From assembly GCA_007695055.1 (NCBI GenBank), contig REEM01000199.1, forward strand, positions 1-51,706: a stretch of DNA of 51,706 nt. Reading direction: 5' to 3'. Each line of letters begins with the position of its first letter. Position 1 is the first letter of the stretch. The position numbers and the translations under genes were made by a program. This document shows, piece by piece, positions 18,095 through 30,966 of the stretch. The notes beneath the pieces are model-generated. The model did not search any database. It was not told the DNA's origin and saw nothing but the letters and a program-made list of their open reading frames with translations. This DNA comes from Spirochaetaceae bacterium (GTDB lineage: Bacteria; Spirochaetota; Spirochaetia; DSM-27196; SLAA01).

Positions 18095-18123
18095 TTAAGT
18101 TTTAGAGTACCCCCTGCCGATAG
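18095..18123 (+). promoter_or_regulatory. Sigma-28-like promoter of flaB1
   Basis: TTAAGTTT (18095-18102), 13-bp spacer, GCCGATAG (18116-18123). Consensus for FliA/sigma-28 is TAAAGTTT-N11-GCCGATAA, so 7/8 and 7/8 with a slightly long spacer. Predicted start near 18130 leaves a ~200-nt leader. Confidence 0.7.
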
Positions 18124-18224
18124 AGTGAATGCGGGAGGCCCTGTGCCGAGTGAATCGGACGGAGAATACTCCTTGCCCCTTATCGTAATCATCGGAGAAA
18201 TATCCGAGCGACCTGAGGGAATTC

Positions 18225-18333
18225 GAAAAAAAAGGAGGTATTTTTCCAACATTCGCGTGAAGACCCAAAAGGGTGCTCCGCAAAGACGAAACGGCAAGGA
18301 AGCCGTTCACAAGAACTTCAGGGAGGAAGTAGA
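18225..18333 (+). promoter_or_regulatory. flaB1 mRNA leader with CsrA-type hairpins
   Basis: Three GGA-bearing loops are visible. (1) A GAAAAA/TTTTTC stem (18225-18230 with 18241-18246) around AGGAGGT at 18233-18239. (2) AACGGC/GCCGTT (18290-18295 with 18302-18307) with loop AAGGAA. (3) ACTTC/GAAGT (18315-18319 with 18326-18330) with loop AGGGAG, which contains the Shine-Dalgarno. CsrA binds ANGGA in hairpin loops and blocks ribosomes when a site covers the Shine-Dalgarno. A frame from GTG 18257 stays open to a TGA that overlaps the flaB1 ATG. The remainder of the 18034-18333 gap holds the sigma-28 promoter. Confidence 0.65.
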
Positions 18334-19188
18334 ATGATCATTAATCACAACATGAGCGCAATGTTCGCTAACCGTCAGCTCGGTCAGACCGACCGATCGA
18401 CTCAGTCAACAATGGAAAAACTTGCATCGGGTATGAGGATTAATCGTGCCGGGGATGATGCATCCGGCCTCGCAGTGTCGGAAAAGATGAGAAGCCAGAT
18501 TCGTGGCTTGCAACAGGCATCACAGAACGCTTCCAACGGTATCTCTTTTATCCAGACGACAGAAGGCTACTTGCAGAGCACACAGGATGTACTCCAACGC
18601 CTGCGTGAACTTTCGGTACAGAGTGCCAACGGTATCTACTCAGCGGAAGATCGAATGCAGATTCAGGTTGAGGTCTCTCAGCTCGTTGCGGAGATCGACC
18701 GCGTAGCGTCGCACGCCCAGTTCAACGGGATGAACCTGCTCACCGGCCGATTTGCACAAGAAACTGGACAGAACGTCATTACCGCCTCCATGTACTTCCA
18801 CATTGGTGCGAACATGGATCAGCGCGAACGCGTCTTCATTGGTACAATGACCGCCACCGCCCTTGGTATGCGAACTGAACAGGACATACTGTCGCTTTCG
18901 ACCCCAGACACTGCCAACCGCTCCATTGGTATGATCGATACCGCATTGACAGTAGTAAGTAAGCAGCGTGCTGATCTTGGCGCATACCAGAACCGCTTGG
19001 AGATGGCCGTACGAGGAATTGACATTGGCGCGGAGAATCTTCAGGCTGCCGAGTCTCGCATTCGGGATGCAGATATGGCCTCGGAGATGGTCAATTTTAC
19101 CCGAGACCAGATTCTGATGCAGGCCAACACCGCTATGCTGGCACAAGCCAACATGCGCAGTCAGACTGTCTTGCAATTGTTGGGTTAG
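18334..19188 (+). CDS. flaB: FlaB flagellin, filament core (copy 1)
   Basis: 284 residues, normal for spirochaete Fla[18 protein letters not shown] and [20 protein letters not shown] are the conserved D0/D1 N-terminus; [19 protein letters not shown]-like sequence and [14 protein letters not shown] form the C-terminus. The D2/D3 domains are missing, as is usual in FlaB. It is exported by the flagellar type III system into the periplasmic filament. GGGAGGA precedes the ATG and lies within a hairpin. About two-thirds identical by eye to copy 2. Confidence 0.97.
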
Positions 19189-19204
19189 GGTAGTATCATG
19201 ATCG

Positions 19205-19231
19205 ATGGAGGGGTCTCTATGGCCTCTCCAT
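19205..19231 (+). terminator. Hairpin after flaB1, possible terminator or processing site
   Basis: ATGGAGGGG (19205-19213) pairs with CCTCTCCAT (19223-19231) with one G-U. A competing hairpin, CTATGG (19217-19222) with CCATAG (19228-19233), uses some of the same bases, so the two exclude each other. Only a short T-rich stretch (TTCTTTG) follows, so termination may be partial. Confidence 0.45.
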
Positions 19232-19267
19232 AGTTCTTTGAAAAACACTCTCTTTGAACGCTGAAAA

Positions 19268-19427
19268 CGGAGAGATTTCTCTACCTGTGAATAAACACAG
19301 GTGAAGCAAATCTCTCCGCTTGAGGAATAACCTCGGTGCGGAAGCGCGAAAGCCGCAACGAAGTCTCCTTTTGGCGGAGTCCGTGAAGGCAAGGAATGCC
19401 TTATCGAACACTATCAAGGAGGGTCAG
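19268..19427 (+). promoter_or_regulatory. flaB2 mRNA leader: long hairpin plus CsrA-type hairpin
   Basis: An 11-bp stem (19268-19278 with 19308-19318), a small internal loop, and a 7-bp stem (19283-19289 with 19296-19302) closed by AATAAA make a strong stem-loop. Downstream, AAGGCA/TGCCTT (19386-19391 with 19397-19402) shows AGGAA in its loop, 35 nt before the ATG, at the same place as the loop in the flaB1 leader. The Shine-Dalgarno AAGGAGGG is at 19416-19423. No clear sigma-28 promoter is seen; GCTGAAAA near 19260 is only 6/8. Confidence 0.65.
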
Positions 19428-20282
19428 ATGATCATTAATCACAACGCGAGCGCCGCATTTGCAAACCGGACGCTGGGTGTGAGAGCAACCGAGGCACATG
19501 GCAATATCGAGCGTTTAAGCTCCGGAATGCGGATAAACCGCGCTGGTGACGACGCCTCGGGCCTAGCGGTATCGGAAAAGCTACGCAGTCAGGTCCGCGG
19601 CCTGAATCAAGCTGAGCGGAACATTCAGAACGCAGTATCCTTTATCCAAACAACGGAAGGGTATCTGCAAAACACACAAGACATTCTTCATCGTGTCCGT
19701 GAGCTTTCAGTACAGTCTGCAAACGGTATCTATACCGCTGAAGACCGTATGCAAATTCAGGTCGAGGTCTCTCAGCTCGTCGATGAAGTCAATCGCATTG
19801 CATCGCATGCACAGTTCAACGGTATGAACATGCTAACCGGAGCTTTCGCAGTTGACAGTGAAGGCGGTCGAATCATGCAGTTCCAGGTAGGAGCGAACAT
19901 GGACCAGAACGAACGAGTATTCATCGGCACTATGACCGCAGCAGCGCTCGGCCTCAGCGATGCACAGGGTGAGAACGGCATCATTTCGATCTCGACCCCG
20001 GATTTTGCTAACCAAGCAATTGGTACAATTGACACCGCACTGCGACAAGTTTCTCAGCAGCGCGCGGACTTGGGAGCATACCAGAATCGTTTCGAAATGG
20101 CAGCTCGTGGAGTTGCTATTGCATCGGAAAACCTTGCAGCCGCCGAGTCACAGATTCGCGACTCTAATATTGCCTCCGAGATGGTGGACTTTGTTCGTAA
20201 TCAAATTTTGACACAGTCGAACACCGCTATGCTTGCACAGGCAAACCTTCAGTCGCAGGCTGTACTTCAGTTGCTTGGCTAA
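19428..20282 (+). CDS. flaB: FlaB flagellin, filament core (copy 2)
   Basis: 284 residues from ATG 19428. The frame is open for another 36 codons upstream, but homology begins at MIINHN and AAGGAGGG supports this start. Same D0/D1-only design as copy 1: [46 protein letters not shown] and [12 protein letters not shown]. The middle differs most from copy 1 ([26 protein letters not shown]). Multiple FlaB subunits in one filament are normal in spirochaetes. Confidence 0.97.
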
Positions 20283-20308: not shown

Positions 20309-20374
20309 AAGAGATTTCTGGACGTCATCTCTTTGGGCGCTTACGACAGGGGGAGCTCGCGCTCTCCCTCTGTC
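20309..20374 (+). promoter_or_regulatory. flaG leader: GGA-loop hairpin and GC-rich hairpin
   Basis: AAGAGAT/ATCTCTT (20309-20315 with 20327-20333) encloses TTCTGGACGTC, so another GGA is in a loop. It is followed by an imperfect stem GACAGGGGGAGC with GCTCTCCCTCTGTC (20345-20374), then ACTTTCTT. The second could be a partial terminator that sets the flagellin to flaG-fliD ratio. The flaG Shine-Dalgarno GGAGGT lies after both. Confidence 0.5.
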
Positions 20375-20399: not shown

Positions 20400-20771
20400 A
20401 TGTCTATTGACATGCCCGGTTTGCCGGGTTATAAGACCGCAGTCCTTCGCGACTCAGGGCTGCCACGGAAGGCAACAAACGATATCTCACTACAGGCTGC
20501 CCGAGCAGCCGCGAATGCAGCAGCCGAAAAGGTTGCAGCACAACAGCGGCAGGCAGCCCGTGAACCGTTATTGAGTGACTTAGAGCAAGTCTCTGGAGTG
20601 TTCAATCACAGACTCAAATTGTCGGTGAATAATGAGCTCGACCGGGTCATCGTCAAGATCATTGATCGTGACACCGATAAGGTTATTAAGGAGCTTCCGC
20701 CGGCCGAACTGCAGCGAGTCTATTCAAGAATTCGCGAGGCAATAGGACTTTTGGTGGACACCGAGATATAA
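20400..20771 (+). CDS. flaG: FlaG family protein
   Basis: 123 residues. The C-terminal FlaG domain is clear: LKLSVNNELDRVIVKIIDRDTDKVIKELPP and LQRVYSRIREAIGLLVD. The N-terminal half is Ala/Gln-rich helix. FlaG usually precedes fliD and affects filament length or stability; exact function is poorly known. CGGAGGT precedes the ATG. 38 bp to fliD. Confidence 0.9.
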   Translation: MSIDMPGLPGYKTAVLRDSGLPRKATNDISLQAARAAANAAAEKVAAQQRQAAREPLLSDLEQVSGVFNHRLKLSVNNELDRVIVKIIDRDTDKVIKELPPAELQRVYSRIREAIGLLVDTEI

Positions 20772-26561: not shown

Positions 26562-26778
26562 ATAGATCTCCAAGGCCGTCCATGCGCGTCGGGTCGGTTT
26601 CGGCAGCAGCCTTGTTCTCACGCTGTATCGCGTCGTAGACTTCCTGCCTGTAGACCTTCACGTGACTTGGAGCGTCTATACCAATTTTGACATGTTCACC
26701 CTTGATCTCGATCACCGAGATCTCAATGCTGTCACCAATAAGAATCTTCTCGTTCAGCTTTCGTGCAAGTATCAACAT
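26551..26778 (-). CDS. csrA: Carbon storage regulator CsrA
   Basis: 75 residues. [22 protein letters not shown] and [23 protein letters not shown] are typical; the C-terminal tail is longer than in E. coli (61 residues) and acidic. CsrA dimers bind GGA in mRNA hairpin loops. It overlaps fliW by 7 bp, the standard arrangement when FliW sequesters CsrA until flagellin binds FliW. Likely targets are the flaB leaders in this window. Confidence 0.97.
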
Positions 26779-27224
26779 GCGTTGTCTCGCTTGCCATCTG
26801 CCTCACCAAGAATTCGGTGCCGTGTCTCCCAGTTCGGATCAAGATGAATGGACTGCCGCCCAAGGCTATCACGCCGATTAATGATGACCGGCCCCTGAAG
26901 GTTGGCCGTCATCTCACGAACGTCTTCCGGAACCGTCACAATGGCAAACACCAGAATGTCGTCTGGATCAGGCGCGCCAATCTCTTCAATGTCCGAGTCT
27001 GGCACCTCTAGAACGTAGTCCGAGCGAAACAGATATGGATTAATGAGTAGAAATGAAATATCGATATCGCGCAGGCTTTGTAACCAGTAAAAAGGACGTT
27101 GCATTGCGTCGAGTAATGCGAACTCGGTATGGCTTTCAAAGCCAAATAGACCGTTGGAGAAACGTATGAGCTGTTTTTCCTCAATCTCGCAGCTTCCGAG
27201 AGCCTTGCTTTGAATTTGTAGCAT
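26772..27224 (-). CDS. fliW: Flagellar assembly factor FliW (CsrA antagonist)
   Basis: 150 residues. [39 protein letters not shown] and [14 protein letters not shown] are conserved FliW blocks. FliW binds CsrA allosterically and is displaced by flagellin, giving feedback on flagellin translation. Directly downstream of flgL (gap 10 bp) and overlapping csrA. Confidence 0.95.
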
Positions 27225-30938: not shown

Positions 30939-30966
30939 TTCTCGGCTGTATGGCGAGCGCGATTAA
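30939..30966 (-). promoter_or_regulatory. Sigma-28-like promoter of the flgN-flgK-flgL-fliW-csrA operon
   Basis: On the minus strand TTAA (30966-30963), 16-bp spacer, GCCGAGAA (30946-30939); consensus TAAA-N15-GCCGATAA. About 40 nt leader to flgN. The regulator genes fliW-csrA would then be in the same late class as flaB1. Confidence 0.7.

Follow-up and report, generated by a model that had tools for sequence, protein, structure and literature searches.

Control of flagellin synthesis by CsrA and FliW is already known, spirochaetes included. The best described examples are the leaders of Bacillus subtilis hag and Campylobacter jejuni flaA, in which a GGA in a leader hairpin is combined with a GGA in the Shine-Dalgarno sequence and csrA and fliW are encoded together (PMC4894983, PMC7652899), as we also found here. 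The RNA recognized by CsrA is described by the SELEX consensus RUACARGGAUGU, in which ACA and GGA are invariant, most loops have six nt, and the AC and GU flanks are paired (PMC7652899). Among spirochaetes, flaB was found to be under CsrA control in Borrelia burgdorferi (as cited in PMC8668096 and PMC9481697), and CsrA binds flaB leaders in Leptospira (PMC8668096). Treponema denticola possesses the same flgN-flgK-flgL-fliW-csrA cluster as the locus presented here, and CsrA sites were reported near the Shine-Dalgarno sequences of its flaB1 and flaB2 (PMC9481697). A further RNA, the motif Termite-flg (RF01729), was published in 2010 with a range given as 'Termite hind gut only' (Weinberg et al. 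2010, PMC2864571).

The window, i.e. the whole stretch of 51.7 kb that was analysed, encoded two tandem flagellins, flaB1 and flaB2, followed by flaG, and on the opposite strand the run flgN-flgK-flgL-fliW-csrA, in which fliW overlaps the start of csrA (Table 1). The predicted CsrA retained L4, R6, V42 and R44 of E. coli CsrA and carried a C-terminal extension, its length being like that of the FliW-binding type. Its best solved relative was 5dmb_D, the CsrA chain of an entry that also contains FliW. A first-pass annotation of this DNA had placed csrA and fliW under a sigma-28-like promoter; the two genes are indeed adjacent, and the proposed promoter just before flgN is plausible. A search for TAA[AG]-N13-17-GCCGA[TA] gave a single match in the window, before flaB1, which implies a flaB1 leader of about 200 nt counted from this putative promoter. 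A short upstream ORF (18125-18337) ends at the flaB1 start, and the leader there changes fast within the genus. Of 148 genomes sampled from the class Spirochaetia, 124 encoded FlaB, and csrA and fliW were each found in 121 of these 148 relatives, in the same genomes for both. As nearly every genome with flaB also encodes csrA and fliW, their distribution cannot discriminate.

Table 1. Features of the flagellin and csrA-fliW loci in the window.
Feature	Position	Strand	Basis
Sigma-28-like promoter TAAG-N16-GCCGAT before flaB1	18096..18121	+	motif match
flaB1 CsrA-type hairpin 1, AACGGC-AAGGAA-GCCGTT	18290..18307	+	sequence; covariation in relatives
flaB1 hairpin 2, ACUUC-AGGGAG-GAAGU, Shine-Dalgarno in loop	18315..18330	+	window scan, folding; class-wide test
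flaB1, flagellin	18334..19188	+	Pfam Flagellin_N and Flagellin_C
Termite-flg-like domain of flaB2 leader	19314..19379	+	Rfam match; GCGC-loop domain covaries in relatives
Helices of this domain, apical loop AAGCGCGAAAG	P1 19314-19320/19373-19379; P2 19322-19326/19366-19370; P3 ~19337-19341/19353-19357		
flaB2 CsrA-type hairpin, AAGGCA-AGGAA-TGCCTT	19386..19402	+	sequence, Rfam alignment, covariation
flaB2 Shine-Dalgarno AAGGAGGG, second GGA	19416..19423	+	sequence
flaB2, second tandem flagellin	19428..20282	+	Pfam
flaG Shine-Dalgarno hairpin, UUUCUUAC-ACGGAG-GUAAGAAA	20377..20398	+	window scan; conserved in order
flaG	20400..20771	+	Pfam FlaG, 70.8 bits
csrA, 75 aa	26551..26778	-	Pfam CsrA, 86.8 bits
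fliW	26772..27224	-	Pfam FliW, 129.3 bits; relatives 2aj7, 5dmb_A
Sigma-28-like promoter TAAT-N15-GCCGAGAA before flgN	30939..30965	-	sequence; one mismatch per element

Both flaB leaders contained a short hairpin with GGA in its loop, at 18298-18300 in flaB1, where the hexaloop is AAGGAA, and at 19393-19395 in flaB2. With the first G of GGA and the A of ATG (18334 and 19428, respectively) taken as reference points, the distances are 36 and 35 nt, which agrees in every point with what the first-pass annotation had read from the letters. Its further statement that core, loop and distance are kept between the two leaders held for GGA and distance and failed for loop length, which inside the closing C-G pair is 6 nt in flaB1 (C-AAGGAA-G) and 7 nt in flaB2 (C-AAGGAAU-G). 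Beyond the hairpin the two leaders are unlike each other because the flaB2 leader has an additional structured domain. Each hairpin folded alone was more stable than shuffled sequences (z -3.2 for flaB1 and -2.7 for flaB2). Five C-A..GGA..-G hairpins with 5 bp or more were found in the whole window versus 1.8 expected from shuffles, and four of the five were situated in leaders, namely two in flaB1, one in flaB2 and one in flaG. The same genome (3.43 Mb) further encoded an unlinked third flaB (G000:C220:23731), in whose leader the hairpin was present too. This gene, the flaG hairpin and the Termite-flg domain described below go beyond the earlier annotation.

We examined 192 distinct leaders of three FlaB types from the class, i.e. 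the two tandem genes and the unlinked third (flaB3-type). Strong-stemmed hairpins with GGA in the loop, at most 120 nt away from the start, occurred in 88 of 93 flaB1, 62 of 78 flaB2 and 20 of 21 unlinked leaders, compared to 5-7% of dinucleotide shuffles, and the spacing between GGA and ATG was mostly 29-41 nt. Pairing was assessed by anchoring on the loop motif only and then reading the flanks, with registers slid by one or two as control. Pairs 2-6 were formed in 88, 90 and 97% of cells for the three types versus 29-65% in the slid registers. Compensatory changes in relatives, proposed earlier as a check, were found by parsimony on the protein tree, with 46 two-sided pair-to-pair changes in flaB1 (pairs 2-5), 37 in flaB2 (pairs 2-6) and 13 in the unlinked type (pairs 3-6). 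While stem letters vary, the loop letters, A-N-GGA-N with a closing C-G, were the most conserved part. This loop matches the SELEX consensus (PMC7652899), which backs the designation as CsrA-type on the level of sequence, and several genomes had flaB3-type loops reading exactly ACARGGAUGU. Two properties count against a recognition by CsrA. SELEX ligands mostly have four or fewer stem pairs, whereas many spirochaete stems have 6-9, and the usual flaB2 loop has 7 nt instead of the preferred 6. Loop length was class-wide a property of the paralogue, with 6 nt in 82/82 flaB1 and 21/21 unlinked leaders and 7 nt in 51/62 flaB2 leaders. A Borrelia-like genome showed the hexaloop hairpin CGACAA-AUGGAU-UUGUCG within 60 nt before a flaB start at position 1501, with A-U as closing pair in place of C-G. 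For one main flaA gene inspected by eye, no such hairpin was seen right before the start.

The first-pass annotation had also proposed a second CsrA site at the Shine-Dalgarno sequence of both genes, as in the two-site hag leader. A GGA is present there in both leaders, and in flaB1, as in the unlinked type, it is situated in a hairpin loop. Class-wide, Shine-Dalgarno stems of at least 5 bp were found in 27 of 92 flaB1 leaders versus 6.4 with swapped strands, and the hairpin of the unlinked type in 10 of 21 versus 2.5. A conserved Shine-Dalgarno hairpin of flaB2 was ruled out (3/72 versus 1.6 with swapped strands). The comparison with hag therefore holds best for flaB1 and the unlinked paralogue, with the second GGA predicted to lie in a Shine-Dalgarno hairpin loop.

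A hairpin over the Shine-Dalgarno sequence was also found for flaG. Most of the relatives examined within the order kept it, and its two strands changed in pairs, for instance UGUAC/GUACG and UAGUAC/GUACUA; it differs from the minimum-energy fold of its short context. We consider flaG a likely further candidate target of CsrA. Between flaB2 and flaG (20345-20374) the window contains another, GC-rich hairpin with a CUCGCG loop and no U run after it. Many relatives have a CGCG loop at this place, which resembles the GCGCG loop of the flaB2 leader.

A flaG message with its own CsrA-type hairpin is what one would expect if the flagellin leaders bound CsrA mainly to titrate it from other flagellar messages, and the C. 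jejuni precedent for such a decoy concerns exactly the flaA leader and flaG (PMC4894983). The GGA sites on the Shine-Dalgarno sequences of the flagellin genes, however, favour direct repression, with which a decoy function would be compatible. That titration is the main role of the leaders seems rather unlikely to us.

The additional domain of the flaB2 leader was recognized through the sole relevant Rfam match in the window, to Termite-flg (19304-19409, 29.4 bits versus a gathering cut-off of 40). By this score the window copy was rejected as a member of the family; as it is below the curated score, we call it a diverged homologue. The homology itself is clear, with the same gene position, the same predicted helices, a GGCGCGA apical loop and a 3' hairpin with GGA in a 7-nt loop, this hairpin being none other than the CsrA-type hairpin of flaB2. 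A search of 395 genomes of the class gave four matches above the cut-off, all of them directly before a flaB2-type gene, and the same position was found for 8 of 10 matches with E up to 0.1. Among twenty further flaB2-type loci, mostly from Treponema and Spirochaetaceae assemblies, 18 scored above the cut-off, each match ending just before the flaB2-type start. All 22 matches above threshold that were examined were thus directly upstream of a tandem second flaB, and so is the window copy. Two weak matches were not adjacent to any flaB, and one of these loci (L157) was instead a match to Flavo-1 RNA (RF01705; 1467-1555, 60.9 bits, above cut-off). Its occurrence in a Spirochaetia assembly may be due to contamination or to a wider range of that motif.

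When whole flaB2 leaders were aligned with MAFFT, the helices were not in register, and RNAalifold recovered just 4 pairs of the 3' hairpin. We therefore tested pairing segment by segment, using as control a 3' strand swapped in from another genome. P3 was formed in 84% of native versus 31% of swapped combinations and P2 in 77% versus 35%. The apical GCGC motif was present in 73 of 75 flaB2 leaders of a first set and in 77 of 77 of a second, with some genomes in both sets, and RGCGCG was found in 64/78 flaB2 versus 6/93 flaB1 and 0/21 unlinked leaders. In a T. denticola-like genome, the second tandem flaB was likewise preceded by a hairpin with a GGCGC loop and by a GGA loop of 7 nt. In the window copy helices P1, P2 and P3 can form, and the minimum-energy fold of the lone 131-nt leader differs from the fold that covariation supports. 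Termite-flg appears to be the termite form of a flaB2 leader that is spread over the class.

Two further elements were noticed in this region. In flaB2 leaders of many families, the internal loop that separates P2 from P3 carries on its 5' strand a conserved AACGGAGC, which offers a further unpaired GGA and is possibly a third contact for CsrA or a partner of an upstream CUCC. A long inverted repeat, CGGAGAGATTT...AAATCTCTCCG, precedes flaB2 in the window (19268-19318). Its 3' arm overlaps P1 of the Termite-flg-like domain, and the two folds are therefore mutually exclusive; the repeat could be a switch or a product of chance.

In seven genomes of one family, comprising Alkalispirochaeta and its kin, the flaB2 hairpin was kept and its loop GGA was changed to UGA or CGA. 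In all seven genomes, a perfect hairpin with the hexaloop ANGGAN was situated 130-134 nt upstream of the flaB2 start; 1 of 71 other leaders had a similar hairpin at about this distance. This new GGA hairpin is located about 100 nt upstream of the GGA-less one. Loss and gain were confined to one clade, and we therefore count them as one event. From the sequences, loss and regain would be the pattern expected if the leader needs a GGA hairpin somewhere. In the corresponding hairpin of C. jejuni flaA, SL1, an engineered GGA-to-UGA change relieves repression by CsrA (PMC4894983). The Alkalispirochaeta group might represent a natural mutant which makes the proposed role of CsrA testable.

The same group retained the Termite-flg-like GCGC-loop domain despite the loss of GGA. 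The domain covaries and, judged by the RGCGCG counts, is essentially limited to flaB2 leaders, which might indicate that flaB2 is chiefly controlled by this domain in place of the CsrA hairpin, and that the domain responds to some protein, RNA or ligand. The regained GGA hairpin argues against this, since CsrA-type control seems to have been kept alongside the domain, and we hold such a dominant role of the domain to be unlikely.

We propose, in line with the first-pass annotation, that the hairpins are CsrA sites in tandem flagellin leaders and part of a homeostasis loop of CsrA, FliW and flagellin, a reading to which we assign a probability of roughly 0.86. Binding by CsrA, repression and relief by FliW are inferred here from B. 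subtilis, C. jejuni, Borrelia and Leptospira. One face of a CsrA dimer would bind the GGA of the upstream loop and the other the GGA of the Shine-Dalgarno sequence about 24 nt further on, and the bridged leader would be blocked for translation. FliW, whose gene shares an operon with csrA, would remove CsrA from the leader unless FliW itself is held by unexported FlaB. As the sites are common to three flaB genes and flaG, the filament proteins might therefore be under one control.

An effect of opposite sign, in which CsrA stabilises or activates flagellin mRNA and does not repress, could be invoked from Leptospira interrogans, where overexpression of CsrA raised flaB1, flaB2 and flaB4 transcripts (PMC8668096). 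The second GGA is, however, placed on the Shine-Dalgarno sequence, and in flaB1 and flaB3-type leaders in a hairpin loop, a geometry known from two leaders that CsrA represses, C. jejuni flaA (PMC4894983) and B. subtilis hag (PMC7652899), and CsrA of Borrelia represses FlaB (as cited in PMC9481697). We regard stabilisation or activation in place of repression as improbable. Short, stable hairpins often precede the ribosome site in strongly expressed genes, but it is hardly credible that the hairpin is a general stabiliser of the mRNA 5' end or a processing signal with an incidental GGA. For mere stabilisation GGA would be dispensable; conservation is highest in the loop letters, with changes in the stems, and a GGA hairpin reappears elsewhere after its loss in the Alkalispirochaeta group.

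Under the proposed loop of CsrA, FliW and flagellin, Termite-flg would be the CsrA-controlled leader of flaB2 that sets the output of this gene apart from that of flaB1, and its upstream domain would take part in this. Tentatively, and with more doubt than confidence, we suggest a class-wide RNA with two inputs, in which the GCGC-loop domain, read by a partner or acting as a two-fold switch, tunes the access of CsrA and so provides for a fixed ratio of a minor FlaB. By its tandem position, flaB2 of the window is the counterpart of treponemal FlaB3, as judged from the tandem arrangement in a Treponema-family genome. In T. denticola, FlaB1, FlaB2 and FlaB3 occur at about 0.7:0.6:0.2, FlaB3 being the minor core subunit, which is increased about five-fold upon deletion of flaB1 (PMC9481697). 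A flaB2 leader with a different response to CsrA would fit the role of a minor subunit, although this is speculation.

Spirochaete filaments are composed of several FlaB proteins in fixed proportions, and a paralogue-specific leader would give a direct handle on how these proportions are set; if two inputs indeed act on the Termite-flg leader, it would control filament stoichiometry. For Termite-flg, an orphan motif since 2010, the results point to a likely function and to a range beyond termite guts that includes a Treponema genome and cultured Alkalispirochaeta. In the open-licence literature searched, we did not find descriptions of a class-wide hairpin with covariation, a paralogue-specific loop length, a spirochaete flaG hairpin, the loss and regain of GGA, or Termite-flg as the leader of the second tandem flaB, with a CsrA-type hairpin at the 3' end. 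Within that literature, the class-wide anatomy of the hairpin and its link to Termite-flg appear to be new.

Compared with published Termite-flg, whose taxon is given as termite hind gut, the window copy is sub-threshold, and CsrA is absent from the main text of PMC2864571. Among the experimentally characterized leaders, that of C. jejuni flaA is similar to flaB1 in that it forms a pair of GGA-loop hairpins, of which the downstream one covers the ribosome site, and shows compensatory changes (PMC4894983). In contrast to the hag and flaA systems, the sites described here are found on three flagellin paralogues and flaG, and one of these paralogues is distinguished by an extra structured domain and a loop of greater length. 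The reports on Borrelia, Leptospira and T. denticola each deal with one species, and the sites they describe are at or close to the Shine-Dalgarno sequence, whereas the hairpin described here is located upstream of it and occurs throughout the class.
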